A stretch of DNA of 64,000 bases from Sphingobacteriaceae bacterium (lineage in GTDB: Bacteria > Bacteroidota > Bacteroidia > Sphingobacteriales > Sphingobacteriaceae): positions 248,001 to 312,000 of the forward strand of contig JAQSWM010000005.1 in assembly GCA_029266635.1 (NCBI GenBank). Reading direction: 5' to 3'. A model generated the notes under the pieces. That model worked only from the letters and a program-made list of their open reading frames with translations, was not told where the DNA came from and did no database searches. Every line of letters starts with the position of its first letter. The stretch's first letter is position 1. Positions 523-55,274 of this stretch are shown here, one piece after another. The position numbers and the translations under genes are program-made.

Positions 523-3500
523 ATGAAAAGACTTTTATCTAGTTTATTCGTCTTGCTCTTTGTAGCTGTAGCTGCATTTGGGCAGGAAAGAACGGTTACT
601 GGAACAGTTACCGCTAGTGATGATGGTTTACCTCTTCCGGGGGTAAGCGTTAAGGTGAAGGGGACCCAGGCTGGTACTCAGACTGGTGTGAACGGTCAGT
701 TTTCGCTCATTGTGCCCGCGAATTCATCAGTTCTAGTTTTTAGTTATATTGGCTATAGCGAACAGGAAGTTGCGGTGGGCTCTAGGAGCACCATCAATGT
801 GACGTTAAAAGTAGATGCCAGGCAATTATCTGAAGTAGTTGTAACAGGTGCTTTGGGTATTCAGCGCCAGAAAAAAGAGATTGGTTACGCAACCGCCAAT
901 GTTTCAAATGAAACTTTGACTGCAGCAAGGCCAGTAAATGTTGCTAACGGTCTTCAGGGAAAGGTTTCCGGCTTGAATATTACATCTATAAACAGTGGTG
1001 TTTTTGAAGATGTTAAAATCAACCTGAGGGGGATTCGCTCTCTGACCGGAAATAACAACCCGATGTTATTGTTAGACGGGATTCAGTCTAGTTTAGGTTA
1101 TTTGTCGTCCATTAACCCAAATGACATAGCTGATGTGACAATCCTAAAAGGAGCCTCAGCCGCTGCAATTTACGGTCCTGATGCAAGGAATGGTGTGATT
1201 GTGGTAACTACTAAAAAGGGTTCAGCTAATCCTGTAATCACTTTTGGCCACTCTACTCAGTTATCCCAAATCTCGTTTTATCCTAAATTGCAGGAAGAAT
1301 TTGGAAGTGGTGGATATGGCGACTATACTCCGTATGAAAACTGGTCTTGGGGACCGGCTTTTGACGGAAGCACTGTCGAAATCGGCCACACTTTGCCTGA
1401 CGGAAGCGTTCAGACAATCCCTTACTCACCTACCAATGCTCGTAAAGAGTTTTTCAATACAGGTACTACTTTTCAAAATGACCTGTCTTTTTCAGTTAAA
1501 GATTTTTATATCAGCGTTCAGGATGCTAACATCAACGGTATAGTACCGGACGATAAAAGCAGAAGGACCGGAATACGCCTGAACACATCGAGAGAATATG
1601 GTATTGTTAAAGTTGGTTTGAATACAAACTTCATCAACCAGGATTATAACATCTTCGATGACAACGCGATGGAAAACTACAATATCGCTAATAATGTTGG
1701 GTTGAACGGCGGGCTTATGAACCTGATCTTCAATACTCCTGCGGATATTCCATTGACTTCCTACAAGGATTTTGAAAACGATCCGTATGCACAGTACAAT
1801 ACATACTTCAATGATTATGGATTGAATCCATATTTCGCTATTGATAACTGGAGGAATAAAGGCAGGAGATCTGATTTGATCACAAGCTTGGATTTAAACT
1901 TAAAAGCTGCAGATTGGGTTAACTTTACTTTCAGAGGTGGCTTAACTTCCCGGAATATTGATGAGAATTATACGTCAAAAGGGGAGGTTCCTACTGCTTA
2001 TGGTATTGGCCGGGGCTTTACTCTGGTTCAGGGTGCTTTATCAGAAAGGGCCTACAATTCAAAGAGATATTCATCTGAATTGTTCGCTAATTTAAGCAAA
2101 CAGCTTACTCCAGATTTTAAACTTAGCGGTATCCTCGGTACTTACTTGCGCCAAACTGATGTGAGAGATGCGTCTGTAGGTGCTGCCAATTTAGTGGTTC
2201 CCGAATTGTTCAACACAGCAAATCGCACAGGTGAGTTAACTGGCGGTTCTGCTATATCAAGGTCAAGATTGTTCTCTCTTTATGGAAGCGCAAGCGTTAA
2301 CTACAAAGGCTGGGCAAATTTAGAGGTTGTTGGACGTAATGACAGAACTTCTGTGCTTGCTTTGGATAACAATTCATTCTTTTATCCTGGCGTAAATGCT
2401 GCAGTTGTATTAACTGACGCAGTTGAAGGATTAAAGGGCAATGCTTTGTCTTATTTGAAGCTTAGAGGTTCATGGAACAAAACAGGTAATGCTGACATTA
2501 GCCCATATTTGCTTGAAGCAACCTTTGGACAGGCGAGCGGTTTCCCTTATGGGTCGTTAGCAGGCTTTACTGCTAATAATACAACCTATGATGCTTCTTT
2601 GGAACCGGAATTTATTGAGAGTACCGAATTCGGTGTGGAGTCAGGCTTTTTCGATGGCCGGATGAGCCTTGAGGCTACATATTATACTTCTAACAATAAC
2701 AATCAAATTATTCCAATTAGCGTATCATCTTCTACTGGTTACACTAATGCGTTCGTAAATGCTGCATCATTTAAAAACAAAGGTGTTGAGTTAGATTTGA
2801 AATTAAAGACAAATACTCGCAGCAACTTCAAGCCACGGCTGAATATCAACGCTTCTTATAATGACAGCGAAATCACTAGTATCTATGAAGGTTTAGATGA
2901 GCTGTTTATCGGCGGTTATGCTGCTGCGGGCAATTACGCGATTAAAGGATATCCTGCTTTCGTGATAAAAGCAACAGATTATAACAGAGATCCTCAGGGA
3001 CGCGTGATTGTTGATGCTAATACTGGTTATCCTACAGCTAACCCTAACAACCAAATCTTCGGAAGAACTCTTCCAAAATGGATTGTTGGCATCAACCCGT
3101 CATTTGATTATAAGAATTTCAGTTTATCTATCCTTGGAGAATATAAGGGCGGACATTACTCTTATGCAAATATCGGAGGCGATATGGCTTGGACTGGCGT
3201 TTCTGCAGCTACTGCAGCTAACCATAGAGAAAAATTCGTTATTCCGAATTCATCTATCGCAGATCCAAACAACCCGGGACAGTATATTGCTAACAACAAT
3301 GTGGTTGTTACAAACGTGAATGACTTCTACACAGGTGTTTACCGTTCAGTTAAAACTAATTTCTTAACAAGTGCTGCTGCCTGGAGATTACGTGAGGTTT
3401 CTTTAAGCTATGGCTTGCCAACAAGTTTACTGAGCAAACAAAAGTTTGTTAAGTCTGCCACAGTGGCATTGACAGGCAGAAATCTTTTACTACTTCTTCC

Positions 3501-3624
3501 AAAAACTAATGAGTTCCAGGATCCGGATTTCAACTTCAGCGAAGGTAATACTGCAGGTATTTCCAATTCTCAGATAAATCCGCCAATAAGAACCTTCGGA
3601 GCTACGTTATCAGTTAACTTCTAA
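523..3624 (+). CDS. SusC/RagA-type TonB-dependent outer-membrane receptor
   Basis: 1033 residues, the normal size for the family. A signal peptide (1-20, ending AFG-Q) is followed by a carboxypeptidase-regulatory-like beta-sandwich (about 23-105), the EVVVTGALG junction and plug (about 105-230), and a 22-strand-type barrel ending in the terminal Phe expected of outer-membrane proteins. SusC proteins import ligands captured by their SusD partner, driven by TonB. It is followed after 10 bases by the SusD-like lipoprotein and then a DUF1735 lipoprotein, so the three form an operon. No degradative enzyme is adjacent, so the substrate cannot be read from context. Confidence 0.95.
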   Translation: MKRLLSSLFVLLFVAVAAFGQERTVTGTVTASDDGLPLPGVSVKVKGTQAGTQTGVNGQFSLIVPANSSVLVFSYIGYSEQEVAVGSRSTINVTLKVDARQLSEVVVTGALGIQRQKKEIGYATANVSNETLTAARPVNVANGLQGKVSGLNITSINSGVFEDVKINLRGIRSLTGNNNPMLLLDGIQSSLGYLSSINPNDIADVTILKGASAAAIYGPDARNGVIVVTTKKGSANPVITFGHSTQLSQISFYPKLQEEFGSGGYGDYTPYENWSWGPAFDGSTVEIGHTLPDGSVQTIPYSPTNARKEFFNTGTTFQNDLSFSVKDFYISVQDANINGIVPDDKSRRTGIRLNTSREYGIVKVGLNTNFINQDYNIFDDNAMENYNIANNVGLNGGLMNLIFNTPADIPLTSYKDFENDPYAQYNTYFNDYGLNPYFAIDNWRNKGRRSDLITSLDLNLKAADWVNFTFRGGLTSRNIDENYTSKGEVPTAYGIGRGFTLVQGALSERAYNSKRYSSELFANLSKQLTPDFKLSGILGTYLRQTDVRDASVGAANLVVPELFNTANRTGELTGGSAISRSRLFSLYGSASVNYKGWANLEVVGRNDRTSVLALDNNSFFYPGVNAAVVLTDAVEGLKGNALSYLKLRGSWNKTGNADISPYLLEATFGQASGFPYGSLAGFTANNTTYDASLEPEFIESTEFGVESGFFDGRMSLEATYYTSNNNNQIIPISVSSSTGYTNAFVNAASFKNKGVELDLKLKTNTRSNFKPRLNINASYNDSEITSIYEGLDELFIGGYAAAGNYAIKGYPAFVIKATDYNRDPQGRVIVDANTGYPTANPNNQIFGRTLPKWIVGINPSFDYKNFSLSILGEYKGGHYSYANIGGDMAWTGVSAATAANHREKFVIPNSSIADPNNPGQYIANNNVVVTNVNDFYTGVYRSVKTNFLTSAAAWRLREVSLSYGLPTSLLSKQKFVKSATVALTGRNLLLLLPKTNEFQDPDFNFSEGNTAGISNSQINPPIRTFGATLSVNF

Positions 3625-3634
3625 TTTATATACG

Positions 3635-5137
3635 ATGAAAAAAATAACATATGTGTTTCTGATGCTACTCACGTTTTCTTTCGTGAGTTGCAGCGATGAA
3701 TTTTTCGATATCAACACGAACCCCAACTCTCCAACGAGTGGTTCAATTACACCTGATTTAATTTTGCCAAGGGTGCTCCACTCTACAGCAGCTAGAATGG
3801 CTACTGGGTACGACTATGCCGCTCATTGGACTGGCTATTGGGCACGTGGTGGTAACTACGGGCCAAGCAACCCACAAGAGAATTATTCTATCACGAATGA
3901 TTATAATTCTGGACAGTGGTCTGGATGGTATGACCTGCTGACTGACGTGGATTTAATGGAAAAGAAAGCCAGTGTAACCAATCAGACCTTTTATGTAGGA
4001 ATAGCTAAGGTTTTGAAGTCTATTGGCTTCATGTATTTAGTTGACCAATATAATAATGTGCCTTATAGCAAAGCATTCGACTTGTCAGGCAATATCCTAC
4101 CTGCGTATGACAAAGGACAGGATATCTACGCCGACCTACTGAATCAGTTAGACGAAGCTGCTGCCATTTTTAAGGCTGTGAATGTAGGCGCAAATGCTAA
4201 TATTGAAACTGCCGACATTATGTTTAAAGGTAACGCTGCGAAGTGGTTAAAGCTTGCGAACACCCAAAAGTTAAAATTGATCGTTCGTCAATCTCAGGTT
4301 CCGGGCTTTAATGCAACAGCTCAGGTTGCTGAGATCACTGCAAATGGTGGCGGATTTTTAATGGCAGGAGAAACTGCATCTGTTCAGCCAGGTTATTTGG
4401 TAGATAATGGCAAGCAAAATCCTTTTTGGGATACTTACAAAAGGACTTATACTGGCTCAGTTGTTGACCAATATAACAGGGCAAACAATTATGTGCTTGA
4501 GAAGTACCGTAGCAATAACGATCCTCGTTACATGTACTTTTTTAGCAAAGCCGATATTCCTGTAAGCGGAAAAGATTACTATGGCTATAATTTCGGTGAA
4601 GTATTGCCTAATAGTGATCCATATAAATCAGTAAATTCATCTGATGTTGCAGGTCCGGGTTTAGCAAAATCGCCAACTCAGGCTCAGTGGCTGTTCACGT
4701 CTGTAGAAAGCTTGTTTCTTCAGGCTGAGGCTATCCAACGTGGCTGGCTTGCCGGTAATCCCCAAGCCGCTTACAACGCTGCCGTTACTGAATCTTTCGT
4801 TTTCTTGGGAGTTCCTAGTGCTACGACTGCTGCAAGCACTTATTTAAACAGTGGACTTCCTATTGTTGATTGGGCTTCGGCTTCAAACAAAATTAATTTA
4901 ATCGTAATGCAGAAATATCTTGCCCTTACTGGTATTAATAATTTTGAAGCTTATGTAGACTATCGCAGAGTGGGCGTGCCAACAGATCTTCCTCTGTCGC
5001 TGTCGCCAAGCCGTGGTACAAATAAGATTCCTTTGAGACTTCTATATCCAACTAGCGAGTACAGTTATAATGCTGCAAACGTAAAAGCTGAAGGAACAAT
5101 TGACCCACAAACATCTACGATTTTCTGGGACAGATAA
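3635..5137 (+). CDS. SusD/RagB-family lipoprotein (SusD-like_2 type)
   Basis: 500 residues with a lipoprotein signal (FSFVSC, Cys19). The start of the mature protein, DEFFDINTNPNSPT, is typical of the SusD-like_2 subgroup, which pairs with SusC proteins but often lacks any polysaccharide enzyme nearby. The alpha-helical TPR-like body would cap the SusC barrel at the cell surface and bind substrate. It starts 10 bases after the SusC stop and ends 21 bases before the next gene. Family call is secure; the ligand is unknown. Confidence 0.93.
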   Translation: MKKITYVFLMLLTFSFVSCSDEFFDINTNPNSPTSGSITPDLILPRVLHSTAARMATGYDYAAHWTGYWARGGNYGPSNPQENYSITNDYNSGQWSGWYDLLTDVDLMEKKASVTNQTFYVGIAKVLKSIGFMYLVDQYNNVPYSKAFDLSGNILPAYDKGQDIYADLLNQLDEAAAIFKAVNVGANANIETADIMFKGNAAKWLKLANTQKLKLIVRQSQVPGFNATAQVAEITANGGGFLMAGETASVQPGYLVDNGKQNPFWDTYKRTYTGSVVDQYNRANNYVLEKYRSNNDPRYMYFFSKADIPVSGKDYYGYNFGEVLPNSDPYKSVNSSDVAGPGLAKSPTQAQWLFTSVESLFLQAEAIQRGWLAGNPQAAYNAAVTESFVFLGVPSATTAASTYLNSGLPIVDWASASNKINLIVMQKYLALTGINNFEAYVDYRRVGVPTDLPLSLSPSRGTNKIPLRLLYPTSEYSYNAANVKAEGTIDPQTSTIFWDR

Positions 5138-48538: not shown

Positions 48539-48621
48539 TCAGCCTGAAGTTCTTGAAGGCTGTGATAATACCAATTTGACTATTTACTGCACCTAGATGC
48601 TTCGACTCCGCTCAGCATGAC
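48539..48621. repeat. Inverted-repeat element, family 2, copy B
   Basis: Starts GTCAGCCTGAAGTTCTTGAA and ends with the inverse-type CTTCGACTCCGCTCAGCAT at 48600-48621. Both ends resemble copy A (44135-44198), and the right end recurs at 52607-52634. It sits in the 259-base gap upstream of the transaminase. Confidence 0.65.
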
Positions 48622-52581: not shown

Positions 52582-52606
52582 ACAATTCCCAATTCGCCGC
52601 ACCACG

Positions 52607-52634
52607 CTTCGACTCCGCTCAGCGTGACAAGCGC
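52607..52634. repeat. Family 2 end sequence, copy C
   Basis: 28 bases starting CTTCGACTCCGCTCAGCGT, differing at one base from the right end of copy B (48600-48627). Here the left end of the element is not seen, so it is a partial copy. Confidence 0.65.
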
Positions 52635-53216: not shown

Positions 53217-54620
53217 CTATAGTTCGACTGCCATTTCCAGCGCTTTGCGCAGGGCAGCTATTTTGTTATTTACTTCGTTAAGCTCGCTCTGCGGATCAGA
53301 ATCTGCTACTATCCCGGCACCTGCCTGATAGTGCAGCACATTGTTTTTGCTCAGGAACGACCGGATCATGATGGCGTGGTTAAAATCGCCATTAAATCCC
53401 ATAAATCCGATTGCGCCGCTGTAAAATGTGCGCTGGCTTTTCTCAAACTTGTTGATCAGCGTCATGGCCATGTATTTGGGAGCGCCGCTCAGGGTGCCAG
53501 CGGGGAAAGTATCGCCAACTACAAAGAAGGGATCAACTTCGGGCTGGAGCTCGCCTGTGACTTTTGAGACCAGATGAATGAGATGCGAGTAGTATTGTAC
53601 TTCCTTAAAAGCTTTCACTTCTACTTTTGAGCAGTGCCGGCTCAGGTCGTTGCGGGCAAGGTCAACAAGCATTACGTGTTCGGCACTTTCCTTAGGATCG
53701 GCTTCTAATTGCCTGGCGAGCTCGGCATCCAGAACGTCGTTGCCTGTGCGCTTGAAAGTGCCGGCAATTGGGTAAATTGTGGCTTCGCGATGTTTAATGG
53801 TTAGCTGTGCCTCCGGCGAAGAGCCGAAAATCTTAAAGCTGCCATAATCAAAGTAGAACAGATATGGCGACGGGTTTATGGAGCGTAAAGCACGGTAAAC
53901 GTTGAATTCGTCGCCGATAAAGCTACGGGAGAATGCCCGGGAAGGGACAATCTGGAAAACATCGCCACGGTAAATATGCTTTTTAAGGTCTTCCACAACC
54001 TGGATGAATTCATCATCAGTAAAGTTGGATGCTTCTTCACTCTGGCACTGGAACTTGTATTCCGGGAAGTTTTTGTTCTGAATGAGGTATTCAATTTTCT
54101 CCAGCCCGGATGGAGAGCCTTTTTCTGTGCTGTGTTCGAAGATGTAAAGCTCATTTTTAAAGTGATCTATTGCGATAACGTAGCGATAGATATGATACTG
54201 CATTAAAGGGATGCTGCGAGCCGGATTAGGTTTATGTTCAAGCTTTATGTCTTCAAAGTGTTCAACGGTTTCAAACGTGAAATAGCCGAAAAGCCCGTTT
54301 GATATGAATTTGAAATTTACATCTTCATCAGCTTTAAACCTGTTCCTGAATGCCGAAACACGCTCCTGTAAATTAATGTCTTTGGCGGGAGTTTCATTCC
54401 GTGCACCATCCGGAAAATATTCCGTAAACACGTCCTCCGTGAGCACCATGCCAGCCATCGCGTCACAGCAAATGAAACTCATGCTGTTTTCACGGCTGTG
54501 GTAATCCGAACTTTCCAGCAACAAGCTGTTCGGAAATACATCGCGTAAGCGCAGGTAAATGCTTACGGGAGTTGTGGTGTCGGCCAGCCGCTTTTTATAG
54601 GTGGTAAATAGGTTATACAT
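53217..54620 (-). CDS. trpE: Anthranilate synthase component I
   Basis: 467 residues. The N-terminal domain keeps the LLESSDYHSRENSMSF segment (residues 34-49), the Trp feedback-binding site, and the C-terminal chorismate-binding domain has IVPSRAFSR, PIAGTFKRTG (about 312-321) and GAIGFMGFNGD. It makes anthranilate from chorismate with ammonia from TrpG. The mRNA leader carries a Trp-rich peptide and an attenuator, so control is at both enzyme and transcript level. Confidence 0.95.
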   Translation of the reverse strand: MYNLFTTYKKRLADTTTPVSIYLRLRDVFPNSLLLESSDYHSRENSMSFICCDAMAGMVLTEDVFTEYFPDGARNETPAKDINLQERVSAFRNRFKADEDVNFKFISNGLFGYFTFETVEHFEDIKLEHKPNPARSIPLMQYHIYRYVIAIDHFKNELYIFEHSTEKGSPSGLEKIEYLIQNKNFPEYKFQCQSEEASNFTDDEFIQVVEDLKKHIYRGDVFQIVPSRAFSRSFIGDEFNVYRALRSINPSPYLFYFDYGSFKIFGSSPEAQLTIKHREATIYPIAGTFKRTGNDVLDAELARQLEADPKESAEHVMLVDLARNDLSRHCSKVEVKAFKEVQYYSHLIHLVSKVTGELQPEVDPFFVVGDTFPAGTLSGAPKYMAMTLINKFEKSQRTFYSGAIGFMGFNGDFNHAIMIRSFLSKNNVLHYQAGAGIVADSDPQSELNEVNNKIAALRKALEMAVEL

Positions 54621-54648: not shown

Positions 54649-54679
54649 AAAAAAACCCGATGCATTTATGCACCGGGTT
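54649..54679 (-). terminator. trp attenuator (intrinsic terminator)
   Basis: On the minus strand AACCCGGTGCA pairs with TGCATCGGGTT around a TAAA loop (an internal G-U pair in RNA), followed by seven U. It is 30 bases upstream of trpE. The 5' arm (54679-54670) can instead pair with GCTCCGGGG inside the leader peptide gene (54732-54724), giving five unbroken CCGGG pairs, a plausible antiterminator. Confidence 0.85.
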
Positions 54680-54710
54680 CGTAAATATAAGGTTTTGGTT
54701 CAATCAAATC

Positions 54711-54779
54711 TTAACATACGTTGCCCCGGAGCGCCTTTAGCTGCCACCACCAGTTTTGAGTATGTGTTGTGTTGTTCAC
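54711..54779 (-). CDS. trpL: trp leader peptide with three consecutive Trp codons
   Basis: A 22-codon frame from GTG (54779-54777) to TAA (54713-54711) with TGG TGG TGG at codons 10-12 (54752-54744). It lies between a promoter box and the attenuator upstream of trpE. Ribosome stalling on the Trp codons when charged tRNA-Trp is scarce would free the antiterminator. The GTG start is weak: no ATG exists in the frame and the promoter box is only 7 bases upstream, so the message may be almost leaderless. Confidence 0.82.
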   Translation of the reverse strand: MNNTTHTQNWWWQLKALRGNVC

Positions 54780-54785
54780 TGCGAG

Positions 54786-54793
54786 CAAATTTA
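54786..54793 (-). promoter_or_regulatory. TAnnTTTG-type promoter box of the trp operon
   Basis: TAAATTTG on the minus strand, just ahead of the leader peptide. With the -7 box here, transcription should start close to the GTG of the leader peptide. Confidence 0.6.
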
Positions 54794-54827: not shown

Positions 54828-55274
54828 TTAATGTGTCATTCCGAACAAGCCTCTTCCGCTAAGCAAGATGGTAATGATAATTATCGCAAGAGCTAATGTA
54901 TAAAAGATGGCAATTGTGCGATGCTTGGCAACAGCGTCTAACACTTTCTTGGAGCGTGAATGGCCAATGGTGATCAATACGATGGCAATGATCATCATCA
55001 AAATGTGTTCTACAGACCAGTAGCGCAGTGAATGGTCTTTCATTGCACTGCCCATGTCGTTTAGTTTTACAAAGGGGCTAACAAAGTACAAACCAAGCCC
55101 GATTAGTAACTGGATATGAGCTGAAATCAGGGTGAAAAGGTTGATTTTCCTGTTCCCTTCTGTGTACGGGCGGTTTGACAGCCAGCCAATGAGCGCTTGG
55201 ATCACGGCTATAAGCAACAGAATAAATACGATGTACCTGAACCCAGAGTGCGATTTTAGTAAGATGTTATACAT
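54828..55274 (-). CDS. Four-helix membrane protein, cytochrome-b-like
   Basis: 148 residues with four predicted membrane helices. Conserved His residues at the helix ends (KSHSGFRY near the N-terminus, SAHIQLLIGLGLYF, SVEHILMMIIAI) resemble small cytochrome-b-like membrane proteins annotated in Pedobacter relatives. Heme binding is not shown. It lies just downstream of nothing on its strand; the trp leader promoter begins 35 bases after its stop. Function unknown. Confidence 0.75.
   Translation of the reverse strand: MYNILLKSHSGFRYIVFILLLIAVIQALIGWLSNRPYTEGNRKINLFTLISAHIQLLIGLGLYFVSPFVKLNDMGSAMKDHSLRYWSVEHILMMIIAIVLITIGHSRSKKVLDAVAKHRTIAIFYTLALAIIIITILLSGRGLFGMTH

Follow-up and report, generated by a model that had tools for sequence, protein, structure and literature searches.

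The trp leader of Escherichia coli (trpL; Rfam RF00513) encodes a leader peptide with two Trp (UGG) codons, can form mutually exclusive antiterminator and terminator structures, and has trpE downstream. Peptide-coupled attenuation of this kind is textbook biology in the Proteobacteria and Actinobacteria. Translation initiation in the Bacteroidota is largely independent of Shine-Dalgarno sequences. As late as 2010, the authors of a survey wrote that they knew of no demonstrated leader-peptide system beyond the Proteobacteria and Actinobacteria (PMC2965389). Leaderless variants are on record: Streptomyces lividans trpL1 (MFAHSTRNWWWTAHPAAH) is a leaderless Trp leader with three Trp codons (WWW) and a terminator before trpE (PMC8079986), and in Sinorhizobium meliloti the attenuated trpE(G) has a leaderless trp leader, with only one of the three trp operons being attenuated (PMC7298713). 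Weinberg et al. (2010, PMC2864571) included Bacteroid-trp (RF01692) as a probable cis-regulatory RNA of the Bacteroidetes, and it was later noted upstream of trp genes in Flavobacterium psychrophilum (PMC6414381), for whose amino-acid operons peptide-leader attenuation has been suggested (PMC9723704). An earlier sequence-only reading of the locus described here had proposed a peptide-coupled trp attenuator and had regarded clear cases in the Bacteroidota as less often described. The attenuator is borne out below; the rarity needs qualification, since trp leaders of the phylum are already catalogued (PMC2864571) and were noted in F. psychrophilum (PMC6414381, PMC9723704).

The window is the whole stretch of DNA analyzed, 64,000 nucleotides from a Sphingobacteriaceae bacterium. 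Direct reading of the sequence places the attenuator at 54649-54793, as had been proposed. The leader and the genes behind it contain the following features.

54815-54812, minus strand: -33 promoter element TTTG, read from the sequence
54793-54786, minus strand: -7 promoter element TAAATTTG (TAnnTTTG), read from the sequence
54781, minus strand: predicted transcript start, giving a predicted 5' UTR of 2 nt
54779-54711, minus strand: leader peptide gene with GTG start, VNNTTHTQNWWWQLKALRGNVC; frame and Trp codons conserved
54752-54744, minus strand: three consecutive Trp codons (control codons), TGGTGGTGG, conserved in relatives
54732-54725, minus strand: predicted antiterminator segment GCUCCGGG within the leader gene, pairing with 54677-54670; segment-level covariation
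54677-54670, minus strand: terminator 5' arm CCCGGUGC, predicted antiterminator partner (swap test, constrained folding)
54680-54649, minus strand: predicted intrinsic terminator, 12-bp hairpin and U7 tract
54620-53217, minus strand: trpE, anthranilate synthase component I (Pfam PF04715 and PF00425)
53212-52646, minus strand: trpG, anthranilate synthase glutamine amidotransferase (PF00117)
52389-51604, minus strand: trpC, indole-3-glycerol-phosphate synthase (PF00218)

The promoter box, the 22-codon GTG frame with three adjacent TGG codons and the U-rich terminator just before trpE were thus all found as the sequence-only reading had described them. The -7 box was placed at -12 to -5 relative to the start, following transcript mapping in F. 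psychrophilum (PMC9723704). The leader gene runs from GTG at 54779 through 22 codons to a TAA stop at 54713-54711. The terminator hairpin (54680-54653) has 12 pairs, 6 of them G-C, and is followed by T7 ending at 54649, 28 nt upstream of the trpE ATG at 54620. By Pfam assignment, the genes downstream of the leader, trpE, trpG and trpC, belong to the matching pathway. The 256-nt gap between trpG and trpC holds a copy of GTCACGCTGAGCGGAGTCGAAGCGTG (52603-52628, minus strand), which looks like a dispersed repeat; a second copy with 3 mismatches lies at 48596-48621 (minus strand) in the window.

The locus resembles E. coli trpL in combining a Trp leader peptide, an exclusive antiterminator/terminator pair and an adjacent trpE, but it has three consecutive UGG codons, a Bacteroidota promoter and a 5' UTR that is almost absent and so leaves no room for a Shine-Dalgarno sequence. 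It shares with S. lividans trpL1 a leaderless WWW leader and a terminator before trpE, although phylum and promoter differ and the likeness is drawn without sequence relationship. The likeness to S. meliloti rnTrpL/peTrpL lies in the leaderless leader at an attenuated trpE(G); there, trans roles are known and one of three operons is attenuated, whereas here both trp operons carry leaders. Bacteroid-trp is likewise a cis-regulatory RNA of Bacteroidota directly before trpE. RF01692 (gathering threshold 49 bits) left the window region unmatched even at E values up to 10, and matched none of the 8 sampled genomes of the sphingobacterial family. In our phylum sample it detected 29 of 296 genomes, nearly all from family f4 (f1, f4, f8 and f10 are family codes from our genome search), which we take to be the Flavobacteriaceae. 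These f4 matches are the same WWW leaders that we found independently in the sample. They differ from the window leader in sequence, in pairing segments and in 5' UTR length, which is mostly 12-14 nt in f4. Position and peptide, rather than the RNA model, suggest that the f1 and f4 leaders are homologous. The window leader probably works like Bacteroid-trp and shares its position and origin, while scoring outside RF01692.

An Rfam scan of the whole window returned only a tRNA. At relaxed thresholds, PyrR, NsiR1 and Trp_leader were the best matches on the leader region, all below their own cut-offs; Trp_leader (RF00513) reached 16.8 bits (E 0.73) against a gathering threshold of 41 bits. The T-box covariance model had no match in the window.

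We next consider how readily such a leader could arise by chance in its own genome. TGGTGGTGG alone is common, with 46 occurrences. By contrast, TAnnTTTG placed 22-44 nt before TGGTGGTGG occurs once in 3.6 Mb, at the trpE leader, and a reversed control pattern of promoter box plus WWW does not occur in the 3.6-Mb genome at all. The CCGGG-based pairing between leader gene and terminator arm is present as claimed: GC-U-CCGGG (54732-54725) pairs with CCCGG-U-GC (54677-54670) at -14.8 kcal/mol. Taken as a single sequence, this pairing does not exceed that obtained when the leader segment is dinucleotide-shuffled (p 0.34), and the fold of the entire leader has only a moderate advantage over shuffled sequences (z -2.2). 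Since the pairing is unexceptional for its base composition, a comparison with relatives was needed to decide its significance; dinucleotide shuffling of the leader segment proved too weak in G+C-rich single sequences and was supplemented by a swap test.

For this comparison we scanned genome contigs with TrpE, which yielded 80 loci, the named ones from Sphingobacteriaceae and close kin; a genus-level search returned no genome besides the source genome. Both the leader frame and its Trp codons are conserved. Each of the 80 sphingobacterial loci encodes Trp within a short leader frame; in 76 there are two or three adjacent UGG codons, in one Trp-Cys-Trp and in three a single Trp. In these last three (L050, L057, L075) the lone Trp codon sits at the usual place (NNWQSLPK type), and they are possibly weaker attenuators. 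The N-terminal residues of the peptide differ between genera. The gene order trpE-trpG-trpC was found in 77/80 family loci, the remaining three being truncated. Beyond the family, 76 of the 296 genomes in the phylum sample, from 11 families, had TrpE at E 1e-90 or better, and in 74 of these 76 a leader frame encoding WW, WWW or W-x-W was located no more than 350 nt from trpE. As the cut-off excludes genomes with distant or no TrpE, this proportion describes the sample and not the whole phylum. Of the two exceptions, one (G238) shows a Bacteroid-trp match some 1.3 kb upstream of trpE. A terminator was predicted in 149 of 154 leaders, with median distances of 32 nt from the leader stop to the terminator and 44 nt from the terminator to trpE.

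Among 28 hisG loci from the taxonomic class, 8 (L160, L166, L170, L171, L173, L176, L179, L186) have an upstream short frame containing a run of at least four (four or five) His codons, in some cases 7-11 nt after a TAnnTTTG box. These are probable his attenuators; the source genome has no His-run leader at hisG.

The start of the leader gene lies almost at the predicted transcript start, as had been remarked from the sequence, and this near-coincidence is conserved among relatives and not accidental. Among 132 leaders with a recognizable box, the predicted 5' UTR is at most 6 nt in 109, 7-11 nt in none, and at least 12 nt in 23, which are mostly from family f4. In 70/74 family leaders, an in-frame ATG lies 4-10 nt past the box and reads without a stop into the Trp codons, compared with 1.3 expected by shuffling. 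TTTG or TTGC lies 22 nt before the start of the -7 box in 62 of the 81 family leaders that have a box. The GTG start itself is rare (4/154 leaders), the relatives using ATG. Leaderless transcripts make up only 5.5% of mapped mRNAs in F. psychrophilum (PMC9723704), and 3.7% of 5' UTRs are shorter than 10 nt in Bacteroides thetaiotaomicron (PMC7366714). Near-leaderless trp leaders are thus unusual for the phylum.

Downstream of the Trp codons, every leader has a segment able to pair with a portion of the terminator, and the pairing sequences vary by group: CCGGG/CCCGG here, GCCGG/CCGGC in Mucilaginibacter, and AACGUCGGG/CCCGACGUU in Parapedobacter. At most f4 loci, CGUCGUGA at the stop codon pairs with UCACGACA in the terminator loop and 3' arm. 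The f4 segment (for example in L096 and L110) overlaps the leader stop, whereas the sphingobacterial family pairs the 5' arm instead. In the swap test, the pairing strength of each leader with its own terminator arm was compared with that for arms from dissimilar relatives. For the 5' arm and loop, own arms paired better within the family (z -4.1 to -6.3) and in other families (z -7.3 to -8.4), with p 0.0002 for both; z was -8.3 to -10.2 for the whole terminator in other families and -9.9 to -12.1 over all leaders. Leader segment and terminator arm therefore change together across relatives, a kind of comparison that the sequence-only reading had proposed. By this comparison, the swap result is a coupled change of two segments that would be able to pair only with the terminator open.

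We then folded the transcript up to, but excluding, the terminator 3' arm, with an assumed ribosome footprint and at equilibrium. The pairing of the 5' arm with the leader here has a probability of 0.66-0.67 with the ribosome on the Trp codons compared to 0.28 with the ribosome at the stop. Leader pairing was more than 0.1 higher with the ribosome on Trp than at the stop in 52/88 family leaders (opposite in 5/88), and was higher in 22/26 leaders of family f4. In the computed states, the antiterminator excludes the terminator, is freed by a stall on the control codons and is blocked by a ribosome at the stop. For the full-length leader at equilibrium the terminator wins in every modeled state (0.90-0.96), which means that the decision of the switch must be kinetic. 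In the untranslated RNA, leader-arm pairing is 0.66 here, equal to the stalled state; lost translation would therefore add no termination at this locus, unlike in the family average (0.43).

Taken together, conservation, the swap test and the modeled RNA states support the peptide-coupled reading, and the leader is very probably a ribosome-mediated transcription attenuator of the trpE-trpG-trpC operon. The promoter boxes, the conserved frame and Trp codons, the terminator and the coupled pairing segments, as predicted, draw on sequence and comparison; from these we infer where the transcript starts, that translation begins at the GTG, that the ribosome stalls and that the leader responds to Trp. 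RNA polymerase would start about 2 nt before the GTG, so that a ribosome would load at the extreme 5' end of the transcript. With little charged tRNA-Trp available, the ribosome would stall on the three UGG codons and leave GCUCCGGG, about 12 nt downstream, free to pair with the terminator 5' arm CCCGGUGC. This antiterminator pairing would precede synthesis of the 3' arm, and transcription would continue into trpE. With ample Trp, the ribosome would reach the UAA and mask CCGGG, the terminator would form and transcription would end.

Three other explanations were weighed. The one that survives best, though still improbable, holds that attenuation is only part of the function and that the leader RNA or its peptide has a trans role too, like rnTrpL/peTrpL of S. 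meliloti. The leaderless, prematurely terminated trp leader RNA of S. meliloti does act in trans (PMC7298713) and the trpE leader here would yield a similar RNA of about 130 nt, but nothing in the analysis indicates a trans target and the peptide N-terminus varies between genera. It is highly improbable that the terminator is governed by a leader that senses a protein or a tRNA (T-box, TRAP or riboswitch), with the peptide incidental. Such leaders share the terminator/antiterminator architecture, and in the folding model the untranslated RNA here is already able to form the antiterminator. Against this, no T-box or riboswitch was matched by Rfam in the window, nor any above cut-off at the relaxed threshold, and conservation lies in a short open frame containing Trp codons, whereas the pairing sequences change from one family to another. 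Finally, the hairpin might merely serve as terminator for the preceding gene (54828-55274), which encodes a small membrane protein, is on the same strand and is near trpE in 68/80 family loci, with the WWW frame a chance spacer frame. To this account we give almost no credence: a conserved promoter separates the hairpin from that gene, the leader is kept in other families and in the 12 family loci without a recognized copy of the gene, the promoter-WWW pattern and in-frame ATG far exceed chance, and the leader segment co-varies with the terminator.

The remaining genes of the pathway, trpD, trpF, trpB and trpA, are absent from the window and grouped on another contig of the genome, where a further leader was found.

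L191 (C1:411000-417500), about 4420-4280, minus strand: second Trp leader and terminator, upstream of trpD (3246-4232)

This leader consists of CATATTTG, an ATG 11 nt later, MSIQNLYQAWRWHL and then a terminator. Past the leader's stop codon lies CGGCAA, which is able to pair with UUGCCG of this terminator. The modeled pairing is 0.88 with the ribosome on Trp and 0.42 with the ribosome at the stop. A Trp leader, mostly with WW or WWW, precedes trpD in all 30 family loci examined, the source genome included, and 29 of the 30 have the box CAT[AC]TTTG. The swap test on trpD leaders gave p 0.06-0.30; GGCAAUC/GGGUUGCC hardly varies, which is the probable cause of the weak test. In families f4, f8 and f10, trpD follows trpG wherever the stretch extends that far. 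Set against the trpE-trpG-trpC order of the sphingobacterial loci, this makes the split appear specific to that family, and each half has a Trp leader of its own. With trpDFBA behind the second leader, both halves of the operon would answer the same tRNA-Trp signal. We somewhat favor the broader proposal that many Bacteroidota outside Flavobacterium use leaderless trp leaders (predicted 5' UTR 0-6 nt) and that, upon the splitting of the trp operon in the Sphingobacteriaceae, the detached trpDFBA gained an attenuator of separate origin, in which both the promoter box (CAT[AC]TTTG) and the pairing segments are different.

A trp attenuator conserved in most of the sampled TrpE-bearing Bacteroidota implies that transcription and translation are coupled in these organisms, at least over leaders. 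The conserved, near-zero 5' UTR suggests that ribosome loading at the 5' end synchronizes polymerase and ribosome. The paired leaders on split trp operons provide a natural experiment on the origin of a second attenuator; if the separate origin is true, the family would have one regulon with two attenuators.
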